From contig NZ_JABBPF010000213.1 in NCBI RefSeq assembly GCF_012927415.1, forward strand, positions 1 through 45,893: DNA of 45,893 bases. The letters are read 5' to 3'. Both the position numbers and the translations under genes were made by a program. How positions within the stretch are numbered: position 1 is the first letter of the stretch; the number at the start of each line of letters is the position of its first letter. The DNA is from Polaromonas sp. Lineage in GTDB: Bacteria; Pseudomonadota; Gammaproteobacteria; Burkholderiales; Burkholderiaceae_C. This document shows, one piece after another, positions 741 through 10,287 of this stretch. The notes below the pieces were generated by a model. The model was given only the letters and a program-made list of their open reading frames with translations, made no database searches and was not told where the DNA came from.

Positions 741-2357
741 ATGTCCGAAAATACTGAAATCGCCAAACAGGTCAAGCGCCGCCGCACGTTTGCCATCATT
801 TCCCACCCCGACGCGGGCAAGACCACGCTGACTGAAAAGCTGCTGCTGTTCTCGGGCGCGATCCAGATTGCCGGCAGCGTGAAAGCCCGCAAGGCCGCGC
901 GCCACGCCACCTCCGACTGGATGGAGATTGAAAAGCAGCGCGGCATTTCCGTCGCCAGCTCGGTCATGCAGATGGAATACCGCGACTGCGTCATCAACCT
1001 GCTGGATACGCCCGGCCACCAGGACTTCTCCGAAGACACCTACCGCGTGCTGACCGCCGTCGATGCCGCCTTGATGGTGATTGACGCAGCCAACGGCGTC
1101 GAGCCGCAAACCCGCCGCCTGCTGCAGGTCTGCCGTGCACGCGGCACGCCGATCCTGACCTTTGTCAACAAAATGGACCGTGAGGTGCAGGACCCGATGA
1201 GCGTGATGGACGAGATCGAACGCGAGCTCGACATGGCGGTCGTTCCCTTTACCTGGCCGGTCGGCATGGGCAAGCTGTTCCACGGCGTCTATGACCGGCG
1301 CGAAAAGCGCATGCGCGTTTTCAGCCCCGGCGAGGACAAGGCCGGCGGCGACGATGAAATTTTGGCCGGGCTGGACAATGCCGAGGCCAGCAAACGCTTT
1401 GGCGCGGAATTCACCCAGGCACAGGGCGAGCTCGAACTGCTGAACGGCGCTTCGCCCGAATTCAACCGCGAAGAATTTCTCAATGGCAAACAGACGCCGA
1501 TGTTTTTCGGCTCGGCCATCAACAATTTTGGCGTGCAGGAAGTGCTCGATGCGCTGGTCGATCTGGCGCCAGCCCCCGCCGACCGCCCGGCCATGCAGCG
1601 CATCGTGCATCCGGACGAAAGGAAGTTTTCCGGCGTGGTCTTCAAGATCCAGGCCAATATGGACCCCGCACACCGCGACCGGATTGCTTTTTTGCGCGTC
1701 GCCAGCGGCGAATTCACCCGCGGCATGAAGCTTAAAGTGGTTCGCAGCGGCAAGGAATTACGGCCCAACACGGTGGTGAGCTTCATGAGCCAGCGCCGCG
1801 AACTGCTTGATACCGCCTTTGCCGGCGACATCATCGGCATTCCCAATCATGGCGTGCTGCAGCTCGGCGACACGCTGACCGAAGGCGAGGCCCTGCAGTT
1901 CACCGGTCTGCCATTTTTTGCACCGGAAATGTTCCGCGCCGTGGAAGTGGCTGACCCGCTGCGCAGCAAACAGTTACGCGCCGGGCTGACGCAGTTGGGT
2001 GAAGAAGGTGCAATTCAGGTGTTCCGCCCGATTGCCGGCTCGCTGCTTCTGCTGGGCGCCGTTGGCCAGTTGCAGTTCGAGGTGGTAGCGCACCGGCTGG
2101 AGCACGAATACGGCGTGAAGGCCCGCATCATGCCAAGCAACTTCAACCTGGCGCGCTGGGTGACGTGCGACGATGCGAACGAGCTGAAAAAATTCATGGA
2201 CGCCAATGCGCACCGGGTCGCGCTCGATGCCGTCGATGCGCCGACCCTGCTGGTCGATCACAGCGCCACTTTGCGCGCGGTCGAGCAACAGTGGCCCAAG
2301 ATCAAGTTTCACGCGCTGCGCGAGCACGCCGGACTGGTATTTCAGGCAAAGATGTAG
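741..2357 (+). CDS. prfC: Peptide chain release factor 3 (RF3)
   Basis: A 538-residue translational GTPase, full length for RF3. GTPase motifs are intact: SHPDAGKTT (P-loop, residues 21-29), RGISVASS (switch I), DTPGH (89-93) and NKMD (143-146). The central and C-terminal domains carry the typical RF3 sequence, including FFGSAINNFGVQEVLD. RF3 recycles RF1/RF2 from the ribosome after peptide release. The last residues, FHALREHAGLVFQAKM, are of special interest because the same tail recurs as a fragment at about 5190-5261. A palindromic repeat follows the stop codon directly. Confidence 0.98.
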   Translation: MSENTEIAKQVKRRRTFAIISHPDAGKTTLTEKLLLFSGAIQIAGSVKARKAARHATSDWMEIEKQRGISVASSVMQMEYRDCVINLLDTPGHQDFSEDTYRVLTAVDAALMVIDAANGVEPQTRRLLQVCRARGTPILTFVNKMDREVQDPMSVMDEIERELDMAVVPFTWPVGMGKLFHGVYDRREKRMRVFSPGEDKAGGDDEILAGLDNAEASKRFGAEFTQAQGELELLNGASPEFNREEFLNGKQTPMFFGSAINNFGVQEVLDALVDLAPAPADRPAMQRIVHPDERKFSGVVFKIQANMDPAHRDRIAFLRVASGEFTRGMKLKVVRSGKELRPNTVVSFMSQRRELLDTAFAGDIIGIPNHGVLQLGDTLTEGEALQFTGLPFFAPEMFRAVEVADPLRSKQLRAGLTQLGEEGAIQVFRPIAGSLLLLGAVGQLQFEVVAHRLEHEYGVKARIMPSNFNLARWVTCDDANELKKFMDANAHRVALDAVDAPTLLVDHSATLRAVEQQWPKIKFHALREHAGLVFQAKM

Positions 2358-2413
2358 TGTTTCAGGGCTCTTGTCCCGGCAATACAGATCTAGTTAGCTA
2401 TTATTTTTATAGC
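2286..2413 (+). repeat. Left 128-bp direct repeat (prfC tail plus palindromic element)
   Basis: This block aligns without gaps to 5190-5317. I count 96 of 128 identical positions. It covers the last 23 codons of prfC, the stop codon and a 41-nt dispersed palindromic element. It forms the left boundary of the CBS-sdh cassette. Confidence 0.85.
2373..2413 (-). repeat. Dispersed 41-nt palindromic repeat, copy 1
   Basis: On the minus strand it follows the pattern GCTA, 9 nt, TAGCTA, 16 nt, [C/T][G/T]GGAC, seen in full in at least five other places in this window. The first 19 nt form a GCTAT...ATAGC hairpin. It lies 16 nt after the prfC stop codon, where it could affect transcript ends. Confidence 0.8.
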
Positions 2414-2465
2414 ATTCTGATTTTTTCAGGGTCACGATGCGCATTTTGTTGAGCACGGACTTCAA

Positions 2466-2894
2466 TCACGGGAAAGAAACATTTCCATTCCGCGAAGCAA
2501 CGAGGCTGGCTTGCCCCGGAGCGCTAGGGTTGCCGTCGACGCGGAATAGCGTGCTTCGCTGTACCAGATGATCCATCTGGTTTGCGGCGTTGATCGTCAG
2601 GGGATGCGGGGTACAGCCAGGCCTGGGGCTAATGAAGGCCGCACCTTTCCGGGCAAGCTCGATTTGCCAATCTGACGCATCTGCAAGCAGCGCGATCACC
2701 AGATTTTCCAGTGCGATGACTCGGGTCTGCAGTTGCACCAGTTCGGCATTGGCCAGCGGCGGGACATTGGGCTGCACCTCACCTGGCACCAGGCCCGGGT
2801 GGTCAGGTCCCGCGCCGCCTTCGTAGTCCCATCTTGAAAGTGCTTTAAAAAGAAGCTGGGCGCGTTCCCGGGTGACTTTTTTGCTGTCTGGCAT
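2466..2894 (-). CDS. Unrecognised small protein, possible coiled coil
   Basis: A 142-residue protein of no family I recognise. The ATG at 2894 is chosen because the minus strand has CAGGAG seven bases upstream; the frame stays open further 5' but without such a site. Residues about 4-25 are basic and helical (KKVTRERAQLLFKALSRW). A proline/glycine-rich stretch follows, then a leucine/valine-rich helix (ELVQLQTRVIALENLVIALL) with heptad-like spacing, and a polar tail. No signal peptide or membrane segment is seen. It diverges from the CBS-sdh operon across a 237-bp gap and lies inside the repeat-bounded cassette, so it may be an accessory or regulatory protein for it (inference). Confidence 0.55.
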   Translation of the reverse strand: MPDSKKVTRERAQLLFKALSRWDYEGGAGPDHPGLVPGEVQPNVPPLANAELVQLQTRVIALENLVIALLADASDWQIELARKGAAFISPRPGCTPHPLTINAANQMDHLVQRSTLFRVDGNPSAPGQASLVASRNGNVSFP

Positions 2895-3131
2895 AAACGA
2901 CTCCTGAGCAAGTGGCGTACAAACACGCAAATTCTGCCATTCTGCGGCAAAGAGGCTGACTGCAAGGCTTTTTGGGCAAGTCGTGGCGCCCTCATCCCCG
3001 ACAAACCTGCCGCTTGTCTGGAAAAGTTCAGAGCTCGCGTTGAAATCTCCAACAAACGATATTGCCCTACAAGCCACGTTCGCCAGGTGGCGTAACTTGA
3101 CCAGTCGCGGTCACCAAAAAAGGAAAAACCG

Positions 3132-3587
3132 ATGGGCAGTATTCCGCTTGTCAGCAGCATTGGCGCAATCGCCGGTTCGCGACTGGCAACAACTGCAAGT
3201 GATGCGCTGCTGATCGATGTGGCGAAATTGCTGAGGCAGACCCAGATCGGCCTGGTTGTGGTCTGCAACCCAGACATGACGATGGCCGGCGTCATCACCA
3301 AATCGGATGTCGTCCGGCAGATTGGTCATTGCGCGGGAAACGCCTGCCAGACCGCAGCGGCGGACGTAATGACCCAGCAAGTGACCTTTTGCCGGGCCAG
3401 CGACAGATTGGCCGACGTCTTGTTGAAGATGCAGACACAAGGCTTGGTCCATCTTCCGGTGATTGACGGCGATGGCAAACCGGTGGGAGTCGTCAATGCG
3501 CGAGATGCGCTCCGATTACTGATGAAAGAGGAGCAATACGAAGAGTCTCTTTTGCGAAACTACGTCATGGGCATCGGCTACCAGTAA
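3132..3587 (+). CDS. Twin CBS-domain protein
   Basis: A 151-residue protein made of two CBS domains and little else: CBS1 about residues 10-65 (LIDVAKLLRQTQIGLVVV, then AGVITKSDVVRQI) and CBS2 about 78-132 (VMTQQVTFC, LVHLPVIDGDGKPVGVVNARDAL). CBS pairs usually bind adenine nucleotides and act as energy or redox sensors. The start follows an AAGGA site. Only 15 bp separate it from sdhC, so it is probably the first gene of the sdhCDB operon and may tune that complex. No catalytic domain is fused. The CBS assignment is firm; the regulatory role is inferred from position. Confidence 0.85.
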   Translation: MGSIPLVSSIGAIAGSRLATTASDALLIDVAKLLRQTQIGLVVVCNPDMTMAGVITKSDVVRQIGHCAGNACQTAAADVMTQQVTFCRASDRLADVLLKMQTQGLVHLPVIDGDGKPVGVVNARDALRLLMKEEQYEESLLRNYVMGIGYQ

Positions 3588-3602
3588 GGGTCAGGATCTT
3601 CT

Positions 3603-3995
3603 GTGAAAAAGTATTCCGTCGACTTTCCGGCCCGACCGGTTTTTCTTAATCTCGCGCAGATCAAGCTCCCCGTCGGTGCGCTGACATCCATCTTGCACCG
3701 GATCACCGGCGTTTGTCTGGCCGTAGGTGTTCCCTTTGCGGTGTATCTGCTGGATCTTTCGCTTCGAAACCAGCAGGCCTTTGCAAGGGTGGCAGGCTTG
3801 TTCGGCAACCTTGCTTTCAAGGCGGCCATGGTGTTTCTGGTCTGGGCGTTGGCACACCACATTTTGGCTGGCATTCGTCACATGCTGACTGACGTCAACG
3901 TGGGTTCAACGCTTCACAGCGGTCGCCGCAGCGCCTGGTCGGTGAACATTGGCGGGTTGGTTTTGGCGTTGCTGGCGGCGGGGGCCATGCTGTGA
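3603..3995 (+). CDS. sdhC: Succinate dehydrogenase cytochrome b556 subunit
   Basis: A 130-residue membrane anchor subunit beginning with GTG. Family motifs: RPVFLNLAQIKLPVGALTS followed by ILHRITG (residues 30-36), and HHILAGIRH (85-93), whose first or second His is the expected axial haem ligand. Three hydrophobic segments fit the fold. In complex II it holds haem b and the quinone site together with SdhD. Its stop codon overlaps the sdhD start by 4 nt (GTGA), which indicates translational coupling. Confidence 0.93.
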   Translation: MKKYSVDFPARPVFLNLAQIKLPVGALTSILHRITGVCLAVGVPFAVYLLDLSLRNQQAFARVAGLFGNLAFKAAMVFLVWALAHHILAGIRHMLTDVNVGSTLHSGRRSAWSVNIGGLVLALLAAGAML

Positions 3996-4330
3996 ACCGC
4001 AAGCTCGCCGGGCTTGGGACCTGGCTTGCGCAGCGCGTGGGTGCGGCTTACATGCTGTTGTTCGTCTTGTCTTTTCTCTTTTATTTTTTGATTTACCCCA
4101 TTCATTCTTACCCGGAGTGGCGGGAATGGGTGGCAAAACCCGCCATTAGCGTTGCCCTGTTTGTTTTTTTTGTGGCGCTGCTGTCGCACATGTGGGTGGG
4201 TCTGTGCGACGTGGTGTTCGACTATGTGCAGCCAGCACGCTTGCGGCCACTGCTGGCTAATGTTCTGGGTATTGCGCTGGCAGGGGTTGGCGTCTGGCTG
4301 GTCTGGATACTTTTTCGGGCGCAGACCTAG
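3992..4330 (+). CDS. sdhD: Succinate dehydrogenase membrane anchor subunit
   Basis: A 112-residue protein with three membrane segments. It starts at GTG within the sdhC stop. It shows the SdhD pattern of an N-terminal LAQRVGAAYMLLF helix, a second helix ending in SHMWVG (His66, expected haem ligand) and the Asp77-Tyr78 pair of the DY motif involved in quinone binding. In most Burkholderiales operons sdhA follows directly. Here only 41 bp separate sdhD from sdhB and no flavoprotein gene is present. Confidence 0.88.
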   Translation: MNRKLAGLGTWLAQRVGAAYMLLFVLSFLFYFLIYPIHSYPEWREWVAKPAISVALFVFFVALLSHMWVGLCDVVFDYVQPARLRPLLANVLGIALAGVGVWLVWILFRAQT

Positions 4331-4371
4331 CCAGGCGATAGCAGCCACCCGTCAAATCAATGGAGCCATTC

Positions 4372-5121
4372 ATGCAGCTTTCCATTTCCCGCTACAACCC
4401 CGAGCTTGACGCGAAGCCGTACATGCAGGACTACACCATCGAAATCGGTGCGACCGATCACATGCTGCTCGATGTGCTGATCCGGCTCAAGCAACAGGAC
4501 AATACGCTCACACTGCGAAAATCATGTCGTGAAGGCGTCTGTGGATCGGACGCAATGAACATCAACGGCAGCAACGGCCTGGCATGCGTGACGCGACTCA
4601 AGGCTTTAAAACAACCGGTCGTGATTCGCCCCTTGCCAGGATTTTCGATCATTCGCGATCTGGTCGTCGACATGACCAACTTCTTCAAGCAATACCATTC
4701 GATATCACCCTACCTGATTAACGCAGAGCCTCCGCCGGAAAAAGAACGCCTACAGTCACCGCTGGATCGTGACCGGCTCAATGGTGCCTACGAGTGCATT
4801 CTTTGCGCGTGCTGCAGCAGTCAGTGCCCGTCTTACTGGTGGAATCCGGAAAAATTTGTTGGCCCTGCAGGCCTGATACAGGCCTACCGCTTTATTGCCG
4901 ACAGCCGGGACCGCGCAACCGCCCAGCGGCTCGACGACCTGGCTGGCGCCTACCGCTTATTCCGCTGCCGCACCATCATGAACTGCTCCGAGGTGTGCCC
5001 GAAAGGCCTGGAGCCTTCTCATGCCATCGAGAAAATAAGGTTGCGGATGCTGGATGTGCAGATCGACGGCAAGTTGCCAACGCACTCTACCTCGTCAATC
5101 AAGCCGGACGAAAGCGCCTGA
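4372..5121 (+). CDS. sdhB: Succinate dehydrogenase iron-sulfur subunit
   Basis: A 249-residue electron-transfer subunit. The ATG at 4372 is preferred because GGAG lies 7 nt upstream, within what would be coding sequence if the earlier ATG at 4360 were used. The [2Fe-2S] ligands are Cys52, Cys57, Asp60 and Cys72 (SCREGVCGSD...LAC). The [4Fe-4S]/[3Fe-4S] ligands are Cys142, 145, 148, 152 and Cys199, 205, 209. All are present, so the protein looks functional. SdhB needs the flavoprotein SdhA to receive electrons, and sdhA is absent here. The partner may be encoded elsewhere, or this complex may differ from standard complex II. Confidence 0.93.
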   Translation: MQLSISRYNPELDAKPYMQDYTIEIGATDHMLLDVLIRLKQQDNTLTLRKSCREGVCGSDAMNINGSNGLACVTRLKALKQPVVIRPLPGFSIIRDLVVDMTNFFKQYHSISPYLINAEPPPEKERLQSPLDRDRLNGAYECILCACCSSQCPSYWWNPEKFVGPAGLIQAYRFIADSRDRATAQRLDDLAGAYRLFRCRTIMNCSEVCPKGLEPSHAIEKIRLRMLDVQIDGKLPTHSTSSIKPDESA

Positions 5122-5189
5122 ATTTGGTCTATTTTCTTTCGCGTTGCCATCCAGCCGCCTGGTCTGCCGCAGCCCTGCTTGGGAGTGCG

Positions 5190-5261
5190 CAATTGAGGCC
5201 CAAAATCAGGTTCCATGCGCTGCGCAAACTCGCTGTGCTGTTGTTTCAGCCAAAGATGTGA
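5190..5261 (+). pseudogene. Remnant of the prfC 3' end
   Basis: One frame reads PKIRFHALRKLAVLLFQPKM followed by TGA. The true prfC end reads PKIKFHALREHAGLVFQAKM; 13 of the last 19 residues match. The nucleotide alignment with 2286-2357 has no gaps. No other prfC sequence precedes it, so this is a fragment and not a gene. It marks the right edge of the sdh cassette. Confidence 0.8.
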
Positions 5262-5276
5262 TGCTTTAGGGCGCTT

Positions 5277-5317
5277 GTCCAAATAATACGTTCATAGTTA
5301 GCTATCATTTTTATAGT
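5277..5317 (-). repeat. Dispersed 41-nt palindromic repeat, copy 2
   Basis: Same spacing pattern as copy 1: CTATAAAAATGATAG hairpin core, 16-nt spacer, TTGGAC on the minus strand. It lies between the sdh cassette and the DoxX-like gene. Confidence 0.8.
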
Positions 5318-5343
5318 ATGAGTGATTGTTGAATAATCCGCAA

Positions 5344-5715
5344 ATGCCGAATTTAAAAACGCTCTCCCGTTACCTGCTCGGCGTTTTGTTCATTGGTGCA
5401 GGGCTGAATCACTTTTGGCACCGTTCTTTTTACATTGCAATGATGCCGCCCTATCTGCCGTGGCATGAGTCGCTGGTCTATGCAAGCGGCCTTGCGGAAG
5501 CTGGCGTTGGTGCCTTGATACTGGTTCGGCGATGGCAGGTTGCTGGCGCTTGGGGAATCATTGCGGTGTCGATTGCGGTATTTCCCGCCAACGTGCAAAT
5601 GGCGCTGCATCCGGAATTGTTCACGCAGTTCAGTCCGCTCGGTTTGTGGCTGCGTTTGCCGCTACAGCTGCTGCCTGTTGTCTGGGCCTGGTGCTATACC
5701 CGCGACCCGCGTTGA
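5344..5715 (+). CDS. DoxX-like small membrane protein
   Basis: A 123-residue integral membrane protein with four predicted hydrophobic helices (about residues 9-26, 45-65, 70-90 and 100-117). The N-terminal LSRYLLGVLFIGAGLNHF and the MMPPYLPWHESLVY loop match the DoxX/DUF-type family seen in many proteobacteria, whose role is poorly defined. The ATG at 5344 is preferred over TTG at 5326, since it places the first helix at the usual distance. It ends 116 bp before the convergent fasciclin gene. Confidence 0.75.
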   Translation: MPNLKTLSRYLLGVLFIGAGLNHFWHRSFYIAMMPPYLPWHESLVYASGLAEAGVGALILVRRWQVAGAWGIIAVSIAVFPANVQMALHPELFTQFSPLGLWLRLPLQLLPVVWAWCYTRDPR

Positions 5716-7945: not shown

Positions 7946-9142
7946 ATGGATTTAGCTTTCACCCCCGAAGAGCAGGCCTTTCGCGAAGAGATTCGCACCT
8001 GGGTCCATGCCAACCTGCCGGGCGATATTTCGCACAAGGTGCACAACGCACTGCGCCTGTCTCGTGACGACATGCAGCGCTGGGCAAAGATTCTGGGCAA
8101 AAAAGGCTGGCTGGGTCATGGCTGGCCCAAGGAGTTTGGCGGTCCGGGCTGGAACGCCGTGCAAAAACATCTGTTTGAAGAAGAATGCGCGCTGGCCGGA
8201 GCGCCGCGCGTCGTTCCTTTCGGCCCGGTGATGGTGGCACCGGTCATCATGGCCTTTGGCAGCCCGGAACAGCAACAGCGCTTTCTCCCTGGCATTGCCA
8301 GCGGCGATGTCTGGTGGTCCCAGGGCTACAGCGAACCGGGCGCGGGTTCCGACCTGGCATCGCTCAAGTGCAAGGCAGAAAGAAAAACAATACCAGGCCA
8401 GGGCGAGGTCTACATCGTCAACGGCCAGAAAACCTGGACCACGCTGGGCCAGTACGGCGAATGGATTTTCTGCCTGGTACGCACCAGCAACGAAGGCAAG
8501 CCGCAGACCGGCATCTCGTTTCTGCTGATCGACATGAAGTCGCCCGGCGTGACGGTACGCCCGATCAAACTACTTGACGGCGAGAGCGAGGTCAATGAGG
8601 TCTGGTTCGACAACGTTGAAGTGCCGGCCGACAACCTGATCGGCGAGGAAAACAAGGGCTGGACCTACGCCAAGCACCTGCTCAGCCACGAGCGCACCAA
8701 TATTGCGGACGTGAACCGTTCCAAGCGCGAACTTGAACGCCTCAAGCGCATCGCCAAAGCCGAAGGCGTCTATGAAGACAGCCGTTTTCGCGACGAAATC
8801 GCCAAGCTTGAAGTCGACGTGGTGGCACTCGAAATGCTGGTGCTGCGCGTGCTCTCCGCCGAAAAATCAGGCAAGAACTCGCTTGATATTGCCGGCCTGC
8901 TGAAAATCCGCGGCAGCGAAATCCAGCAACGCTACGGCGAGCTGATGATGCTGGCCGCCGGCCCGTTCAGCCTGCCGTTTATTGAAGAGGCCATGGAAGC
9001 GGGCTGGCAAGGCAACTTCCCCGGCGGCGCGGTCGCCAACGCGCCACTGGCCGGGACCTATTTCAACCTGCGCAAGACGACGATTTACGGCGGCTCCAAC
9101 GAAGTGCAGCGAAACATAGTTTCCCAGGTCGTACTCGGTTGA
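7946..9142 (+). CDS. Acyl-CoA dehydrogenase, large-type subunit (PimC-like)
   Basis: A 398-residue FAD-dependent acyl-CoA dehydrogenase with GWLGHGWPKEFGG, YSEPGAGSDLASL (FAD/substrate motif), VNGQKTWTT and a C-terminal TIYGGSNEVQRNIV. At the usual catalytic Glu position (YEGTxQ in medium-chain enzymes) there is Gly-Gly. A Glu in LLSHERTNIAD may be the base instead, as in isovaleryl-CoA dehydrogenase (inference). It lies 29 bp before a second acyl-CoA dehydrogenase and the two probably form a heteromer, like PimC/PimD. The substrate cannot be read from sequence. An AGGAG-like purine run (GGAGAACTC) precedes the ATG. Confidence 0.9.
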   Translation: MDLAFTPEEQAFREEIRTWVHANLPGDISHKVHNALRLSRDDMQRWAKILGKKGWLGHGWPKEFGGPGWNAVQKHLFEEECALAGAPRVVPFGPVMVAPVIMAFGSPEQQQRFLPGIASGDVWWSQGYSEPGAGSDLASLKCKAERKTIPGQGEVYIVNGQKTWTTLGQYGEWIFCLVRTSNEGKPQTGISFLLIDMKSPGVTVRPIKLLDGESEVNEVWFDNVEVPADNLIGEENKGWTYAKHLLSHERTNIADVNRSKRELERLKRIAKAEGVYEDSRFRDEIAKLEVDVVALEMLVLRVLSAEKSGKNSLDIAGLLKIRGSEIQQRYGELMMLAAGPFSLPFIEEAMEAGWQGNFPGGAVANAPLAGTYFNLRKTTIYGGSNEVQRNIVSQVVLG

Positions 9143-9171
9143 AGAAGCAAGATTTAAAGGACTAAGCAATC

Positions 9172-10287
9172 ATGGATTTTGATTTCACCGACGACCAGCA
9201 ACAACTGCGCGACGCGGTTCGCAAGTGGGTTGACAAAGGCTACGACTTCGGGCGCCGCAGCAGCATCGCCAGCGCGAGCGGGTTTTCACGCGAAGCTTAC
9301 GGCGAGCTGGCCGAACTGGGCTTGCCCGGCCTCTACATCCCCGAAGCGGATGGCGGCCTGGGCATGGGGCCGGTTGAAGCCATGGTTGTCATGGAAGAGC
9401 TGGGTCGTGGCCTGGTTCTCGAGCCGTTTGTGCAGACGCTGATCGCGGGCGGCGTGCTTTCGGGCTATGCGCCAGAGGCTGTCAAAACGGCCTGGCTGCC
9501 CAAAATAGCTTCGGGTGAAAGCCTGGTGGTGCTGGCCTACCAGGAGCGCGCAGCGCGCTACCATTTCGAAAAATGTGATGCAAAAGCGGCTCACGTCCAG
9601 GATTCATGGTCACTGACTGCTACAAAAAGCATAGTACCCGCTGGCGACCAGGCAGACGCCTTCATCGTGCCCGCCATGGCCAATGGCGCGCTGGCGCTGT
9701 TTCTGGTGGAACGCCAATCGGCGGGCGTCGCCACGCAGGGGTATGTCACGCAAGATGGCGCGCGCGCGGCAGAAGTCAGGCTCGACAATGCGCCCGCCAG
9801 CCTGATTACCCTTGATGGCTTGAGCGCGCTCGAGCATGCCATTGACATCGGCATTGCCGCCAGCTGCGCCGAAGCCGTCGGCGTGATGGACAAGACACTG
9901 TCCATCACGGTCGACTACATGAACACCCGCAAGCAGTTTGGCGTGGTCATCAGCAGTTTTCAGGCGCTGCGCCACCGCGTCGCCGACATGAAGATGCAGC
10001 TCGAGCTAGCCCGCTCGATGAGTTACTACGCTTCGCTCAAACTCAATGCTCCGGCCGACGAACGCCGCCGGGCGCTGGCCAGGGCCAAGTACCAGCTGGG
10101 CATTTCAATGCGTTTTATCGGCCAGCAGGCGGTGCAGCTCCATGGCGGCATTGGCGTGACCGACGAGTACATCGTGAGCCATTATTTCAAGAAGCTGACC
10201 CAGCTTGAAATGACCTTTGGCGACATGCTGCACCATCTGGGCGAGGTGTCCAGACAGATGCAGGACACGGCGGGCGTGTTTGCCTAG
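9172..10287 (+). CDS. Acyl-CoA dehydrogenase, small-type subunit (PimD-like)
   Basis: A 371-residue protein of acyl-CoA dehydrogenase fold: FTDDQQQLRDAVRKWV start, LGLPGLYIPEADGGLGMGP, a C-terminal helical domain with MNTRKQFGVVISSFQALRHRVADMK and QLHGGIGVTDEY. The C-terminal segment LEMTFGD replaces the usual catalytic YEG motif, so it may be the non-catalytic partner of the upstream gene. The sequence SWSLTATKSIVPAG (about residues 143-156) is encoded by a copy of the 41-nt dispersed repeat, at a site where the family normally has a WxLTGxK strand; the repeat has been accommodated in frame. Confidence 0.9.
   Translation: MDFDFTDDQQQLRDAVRKWVDKGYDFGRRSSIASASGFSREAYGELAELGLPGLYIPEADGGLGMGPVEAMVVMEELGRGLVLEPFVQTLIAGGVLSGYAPEAVKTAWLPKIASGESLVVLAYQERAARYHFEKCDAKAAHVQDSWSLTATKSIVPAGDQADAFIVPAMANGALALFLVERQSAGVATQGYVTQDGARAAEVRLDNAPASLITLDGLSALEHAIDIGIAASCAEAVGVMDKTLSITVDYMNTRKQFGVVISSFQALRHRVADMKMQLELARSMSYYASLKLNAPADERRRALARAKYQLGISMRFIGQQAVQLHGGIGVTDEYIVSHYFKKLTQLEMTFGDMLHHLGEVSRQMQDTAGVFA
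9595..9635 (-). repeat. Dispersed 41-nt palindromic repeat, copy within an acyl-CoA dehydrogenase gene
   Basis: GTCCAG, 7 nt, GGTCA, then GCTACAAAAAGCATAG. This matches the reverse complement of the copy at 25335-25375 position for position over 41 nt with no gap. Translated in the host gene frame it gives VQDSWSLTATKSIV. Confidence 0.75.

Follow-up and report, generated by a model that had tools for sequence, protein, structure and literature searches.

The window, by which we mean the whole analysed stretch of 45,893 nt of Polaromonas sp. DNA (contig C151 of its own genome, G000), contains downstream of prfC a cassette of accessory genes enclosed by two copies of the prfC 3' end. The working prfC (741..2357, plus strand) encodes an intact peptide chain release factor 3 and scores far over the cut-offs of NF001964 and TIGR00503. 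It is followed by the minus-strand gene orfX (2466..2894; 142 aa, or 203 aa from an earlier start) and then, on the plus strand, by a gene for a CBS-domain protein with two domains (3132..3587; PF00571, 1.3e-20), accessory genes sdhC (cytochrome b556 subunit, 3603..3995), sdhD (membrane anchor, 3992..4330) and sdhB (iron-sulphur subunit, 4360..5121), a partial prfC copy, and a MauE/DoxX-like gene (5326..5715; PF07291). This order, given in the initial annotation, is confirmed by open reading frames (ORFs) and profile matches. SdhC, SdhD and SdhB exceed the NCBIfam cut-offs of TIGR02970, TIGR02968 and TIGR00384, respectively, and SdhB also that of NF004616. No flavoprotein gene sdhA is present between sdhD and sdhB. 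The orfX product has no match in Pfam, and its 142-aa form has none in NCBIfam; its homologues lie near sdhCDB genes in some other loci.

The two prfC copies were recovered as a direct repeat by an unaided repeat search of the window, positions 2285-2415 and 5189-5319 being 76% identical over 131 nt at a spacing of 2904. The gapless alignment of 128 bp claimed previously (2286-2413 with 5190-5317) was re-measured and indeed has 96 identities, 54 of 72 in the coding part and 42 of 56 past the stop codon. The best other 128-nt place in the window has 54 identities, and in 100 first-order Markov shuffles the maximum was 58. The left copy (2286..2413, plus strand) consists of the last 72 nt of prfC and 56 nt past the stop codon. 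The right copy (5190..5317, plus strand) is a prfC 3' end that was displaced and has decayed; it comprises the post-stop stretch, including a sequence close to the hairpin GCTATTATTTTTATAGC. In the left copy this hairpin is found roughly 40 nt downstream of the stop codon of prfC (2397..2413, no strand assigned). The tail peptides KIKFHALREHAGLVFQAKM and KIRFHALRKLAVLLFQPKM, compared by eye, are alike at 13 of 19 residues, the same count as reported before. Leftward of 5190 the ungapped alignment has 7/15 identities at 5175-5189 and 3-4/15 further left. When the left copy was searched against the own genome (E limit 0.1, with 40 of the 66 candidates being scored), 17 matches were obtained. Fifteen of them measure just 19-54 nt; the long ones are the two places already known, and no third long copy was produced.

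A hairpin is found at a similar position in about half of the loci of the genus, and hairpins or near copies also occur behind displaced tails; the element is perhaps a terminator. Its stems vary on both sides between genomes. The hairpin alone is excluded as the source of the repeat by the coding similarity (54/72) and by the shortness of the 15 other genome matches. That the repeat is a dispersed hairpin accompanied by chance similarity is hardly credible: the pattern GCTAY-N5..9-RTAGC is indeed dispersed, with 72 matches in 526 kb of genus loci, but the coding similarity is in frame, and displaced tails reach 232 and 296 nt in two other genomes, G074 and G084 (G labels other than G000 denote genomes of the genus Polaromonas, many of them drafts).

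The right copy can be placed by the DNA behind it. The initial annotation had suggested looking for relatives in which prfC directly precedes the DoxX-like gene, and such relatives exist: the cassette-free genomes G069 (gap of 82 nt) and G091 (about 66 nt). The gap is larger in G028 and G001. What follows the right copy in the window is colinear with the sequence downstream of the prfC stop codon in G069 and G091. In G074 (Polaromonas sp. D1-2020 MAG014), the DNA behind the displaced tail is colinear from nucleotide 1 with the prfC flank of G004, G025 and G079, and the flank of the outer tail of G105 is colinear with those of G032, G036, G023, G095 and others. Thus the right tail in the window, the tail of G074 and the outer tail of G105 are former prfC ends standing before their native flanks. 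The earlier proposal that the cassette entered after prfC and that the diverged fragment is the old end is therefore supported by the empty sites of G069 and G091. The relatives do not all carry the same genes, nor is the right copy a palindrome only: of 75 further genomes of the genus, with many of the loci truncated by contig ends, only G074 shares the cargo, and the coding similarity is real. The last 60 coding nucleotides of the right tail were uninformative about its ancestry, the left end of the window itself ranking 50 of 77, and for this reason the flank was used.

Such structures recur in the genus. A prfC tail match was found in 76 of 87 genomes, and five of the 76 (G000, G074, G084, G095, G105) have extra tails, six in total, all downstream of prfC and in the same orientation; many of the 77 loci surveyed in these 76 genomes end within a few kb, so that farther tails may be missed. 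By blastn the tails are 45, 71, 75, 78, 232 and 296 nt long, the two longest being those of G074 and G084. The cargo is the sdh set in G000 and G074. G105 has two tails in a row, the first preceded by ORFs without a Pfam match, with genes for a Phd/YefM antitoxin and a PIN-domain protein between the tails, the PIN-toxin gene ending 16 nt upstream of a tail; behind the second tail lies a DUF3616 gene, which is native behind prfC elsewhere. The tail of G095 is preceded by a DUF3616 gene and genes of a tannase-family protein and an AraC-type regulator, and followed by an amidase gene. The tail of G084 lies behind a phytase-like gene and is fused to a weak DsbA-like start. Left out of the count were weak blastn matches of 15-38 nt in G010, G071, G087 and G102 (E 0.43) and two genomes with two matches each: G011, where the gene is divided between contigs, and G002, in which both prfC copies are long. 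The two copies of G002, on contigs C264 and C365 of a draft genome, perhaps reflect a mixed bin.

The 3' ends of two other genes served as controls. In the window, the purN end faces the same stretch from the opposite side. Protein searches found a second partial copy of the purN 3' end in none of 82 genomes, and of the ileS end likewise in 0/82; the purN matches listed below E 1e-27 all have a likeness of 38-44%, with the exception of one purN end in G065 that is truncated where its contig stops. The identical search with prfC was positive in 4 of 76 genomes (Fisher test, 0.0095), or in five (0.0029) if the window is counted, whose own tail is detected by nucleotide search only. A scan of 397 genomes of the family, 386 of which had a match, gave none with more than one match; short tails of more remote genera would stay below its threshold, and the negative result is correspondingly weak. 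These data support the conclusion that the prfC 3' end is a place where Polaromonas collects genes, beyond one odd cassette. The recurrence of the structure with other cargo goes beyond what the initial annotation contained.

The sdh cassette itself has moved. G000 and G074 have the same cargo at the same place before different native flanks. Their common sequence starts directly after the hairpin and stops near position 5151 of the window (approximate extent 2415..5151, no strand assigned, from just past the hairpin to just past sdhB); beyond it the sequences differ, and in the window a junction stretch (5152..5189, no strand assigned) leads to the right tail. Identity at four-fold sites between G000 and G074 is 189/234 (81%) in the three sdh genes and 462/710 (65%) in core genes (prfC, sdhA, housekeeping sdhB and part of gltA; Fisher p 4.6e-6). 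The higher identity of the sdh genes implies that the cassette moved between species, and, as judged from these sites, it shows that the sdh genes arrived at this place more recently than the species split. In a tree of prfC fronts of 49 genomes, G000 and G074 are apart, each adjoining cassette-free genomes. An old, vertically inherited cassette cleanly deleted between the tails in other lineages is thus very improbable: recombination across the direct repeats would remove the cassette scarlessly, with one prfC end remaining, but this scheme agrees neither with the excess of four-fold identity in the sdh genes nor with the relatives of both carriers that have no cassette. The start of the displaced tail differs between G000 and G074, hence either the tail in the window lost a part, or the junctions arose separately. 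In the CBS protein of the G074 cassette (L104 1266-1439) residues 95-151 alone align, while the sdh genes are open; therefore CBS may be dispensable.

On balance, the prfC 3' end appears to be a recurrent landing place for foreign genes, entered by a crossover within prfC that shifts the old end to the right. The incoming DNA would consist of a 3' part of prfC followed by cargo and would pair with the prfC of the recipient. A crossover of the RecA type inside prfC would leave the working gene with its own front and give it the end of the donor, and the far side of the cargo would be joined, with little or no homology, inside the old prfC end of the recipient. The latter would remain as a tail before the old flank, and a later acquisition would insert in front of an earlier one. 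Further on, ordinary homologous recombination could carry a cassette that has prfC sequence at either side into any relative, irrespective of the DNA downstream of prfC there.

The claim of the initial annotation that no integrase is present holds for tyrosine integrases: a search for PF00589 on the prfC contigs of the five carriers gave none, the contig of G084 covering only about 4.5 kb downstream and serine recombinases not being searched. In G095, represented by one contig, there is no tyrosine integrase within 370 kb of prfC. All five carriers have tyrosine integrases off the prfC contigs. The last 57 aa of PrfC have no match in 50,697 phage records, and on plasmids they match at three places, each spanning the whole query.

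These data bear on site-specific integration, in which small elements without an integrase but with replacement ends would enter successively, as in integrons, by means of a recombinase acting in trans on a core located some 75 nt upstream of the prfC stop codon. Four of the six tails, those of the window, G095 and G105, are similar in length, so that a fixed site with such a recombinase is conceivable; furthermore, the cargo is compact, and in G105 it forms a row. However, the tails of 232, 296 and 45 nt do not fit a fixed site, the PrfC end is absent from the phage records and complete at all three plasmid places, and the contigs of the carriers have no tyrosine integrase, serine recombinases and trans-acting integrases elsewhere not having been examined. 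We consider this mechanism unlikely.

If the crossover within prfC is correct, the working end should be foreign and the displaced tail native, and in G074 this may be the case. The match of G074 prfC to sites uniform in the G004/G079 clade is 0.93 before and 0.73 after approximately nt 1017 (permutation p 0.001), and five members of this sister clade show no comparable break (p 0.16-0.42). In bins 9-11 G074 is 0.88-0.92 like the sister clade, whose members are mutually 0.93-0.98, both being low in the last bin. Near the prfC end the displaced tail has clade-type bases at 8 of 12 positions and the working end at 4 of 12. For the 75 nt from the stop codon of the tail, the fit is 0.85 to G004 and 0.72 to the working end of G074 itself. 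The comparison slightly favours a native origin of the displaced tail of G074 and a foreign one of its working end.

Several observations weigh against the crossover model. The outgroup G016, which has no extra tail, breaks similarly against the G004/G079 clade (nt 995, p 0.011), and therefore the change may lie in the clade and not in G074; for the prfC of G080, p is 0.07. With the cut at codon 440, the pairs that include G074 are not extreme (the largest drop being 0.071, for G091-G102, against 0.064 for G074-G079). The cut at nt 1072 used for counting clade-type bases was picked after the bin comparison had been seen, and true clade members, when left out, vary from 8/18 to 12/13 clade-type bases, so that the difference between 8/12 and 4/12 is modest. 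The prfC of the window has no break (p 0.37), and its left and right post-stop stretches are most alike mutually (0.75, rank 1 of 77), which is better explained by a duplicated native end or later conversion than by a donor end. Clean empty-site matches were not obtained for G084 and G095, and the agreement in length of four tails is closer than random joining suggests. Finally, ComEC was found in four of the five carriers, G074 being the exception, and ComEC alone would be no proof of an uptake of free DNA. As a separate observation, a break of affinity to the G004/G079 clade at prfC nt 990-1020 is seen in G074, G016 and G080, perhaps because of an exchange in that clade. Of a replacement end from a donor, such as the initial annotation mentions for islands, nothing is visible in the prfC of the window, and in G074 it is no more than suggested.

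The mutual resemblance of the post-stop stretches would fit integration of the Campbell type, if the donor was close kin. A circle carrying cargo and a prfC stretch would be inserted by one homologous crossover that duplicates this stretch, yielding tails on both sides at once. However, each case needs a circle joining its cargo to a prfC end, and none was seen in the plasmid and phage records; besides, the displaced tail of G074 looks native rather than donor-like, if modestly so. This scheme is rather improbable.

The prevailing interpretation, a crossover in prfC with the old end displaced to the right, has parallels in several known systems. The SXT/R391 elements share prfC as the target gene. 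They use the 5' end of prfC and their own integrase, whereas here the 3' end is involved and no tyrosine integrase was found nearby. Integron gene cassettes form compact rows with the newest nearest to the entry point; the rows behind prfC are similarly compact, and the newest-nearest order is inferred for them. Unlike in integrons, it is the coding end of a gene that is repeated behind prfC, and its length varies. In Rhs systems the end of the protein itself changes, whereas PrfC remains the same protein. Common to both is a constant gene front trailed by a series of displaced ends; for Rhs, PMC5361080 refers to other work on C-terminal displacement, which leaves orphan 3' regions in strings. 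The insertions of Helicobacter pylori restriction-modification genes, which according to PMC1643837 and PMC4978471 involve long target duplications, resemble the prfC cases in that the cargo is flanked by a direct repeat of the target. They mainly concern restriction-modification genes, unlike the several kinds of cargo and differing tail lengths at one gene end described here.

A close likeness may be drawn to the type VI secretion system (T6SS) of Vibrio cholerae, where sequential displacement of effector genes leaves arrays of immunity genes; the mechanism proposed there is similar to homology-facilitated illegitimate recombination, with later exchange by ordinary recombination, and a comparison with integrons is made (PMC5361080). 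Homology-facilitated illegitimate recombination as such is described in PMC3240628. At T6SS loci as at prfC, a module is inserted next to a conserved sequence acting as the anchor, the old part is displaced in the downstream direction, and arrays build up through repeated events. The two differ in what is displaced, there an immunity gene that selection presumably preserves, here a dead gene end; moreover, at prfC a translation factor provides the anchor, and the cargo comprises a number of unrelated kinds. The principle of displacement has thus already been proposed for other loci, and prfC adds a new setting; an earlier report of this structure at prfC was not found in searches of the open-licence literature, where the single paper retrieved for Polaromonas together with prfC concerns Tn4371-like elements. 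A mechanism argued so far from toxin-immunity loci becomes testable at a neutral core gene. Here the end of a housekeeping gene gathers foreign genes with no mobility gene in sight, and the leftover prfC ends both give the order of events and form a record of what was acquired.

The absence of sdhA is a constant property of the sdh set related to that of the window. Among the first 45 of 80 related sdh loci compared, sdhD is followed by sdhB without sdhA in 23 of 23 loci of this kind (L195-L216, of which L195 is that of G074, and L225), whereas L217-L224 have sdhA between these genes. The family lacking sdhA (L195-L216, L225 and L001) is found in Burkholderiales and on a Variovorax plasmid, and some of its sets lie near CBS, hemerythrin or orfX genes. 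The genome of G074 has a single SdhA match, hence the accessory set must either borrow this SdhA or work without one. Conservation of the set in Burkholderiales raises the question of subunit sharing in complex II.

The accessory SdhB of the window has arginine in the motif RCRTIMNC, where its own housekeeping copy (C88) has histidine. In the motif RC(H/R)xIMNC arginine occurs in 22 of 22 accessory loci with a readable motif and in 11 of 82 comparison sequences; thus it is not unique to accessory SdhB. Of 26 rows closer to the accessory query 22 were kept, two repeats of the G008 locus, L216 (lacking the motif) and L229 (which has sdhA) having been dropped, and L214 was not among the rows. The comparison set, 82 of 84 sequences with the motif, retains duplicates, so that the arginine contrast is rough. 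We take the variable position to be equivalent to codon 272 of Botrytis SdhB. Replacement of histidine by arginine at that codon accompanies resistance to complex II inhibitors (PMC5108788). By analogy, the arginine of accessory SdhB could be linked to inhibitor tolerance. Ten hand-picked neighbour genes of sdh loci were scanned and included one NnrS and one hemerythrin/ScdA gene, the rest being of other kinds or without a match. Judging from gene content, a role of the accessory sdh genes under nitric oxide or low oxygen would fit.

Taken further, and tentatively, the prfC end could act as an integrase-free acquisition port, which takes in a fresh end and leaves the last one behind, with the newest cargo nearest to the gene. 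The flanking prfC stretches would then be portable homology arms by which a cassette passes between species, whatever lies downstream of prfC. The cargo would include a mobile complex II set without a flavoprotein, which would borrow the housekeeping SdhA and, having a changed site near the quinone pocket, could be a swap-in enzyme with tolerance to nitric oxide or an inhibitor.

Elsewhere in the own genome of the window there is another accessory sdhC/D/B set, which has stop codons and is decayed (G000:C172:16494-17179; in locus L148, approximately 8495-10227). It contains between sdhD and sdhB a gene that, by eye, is DUF488-like.

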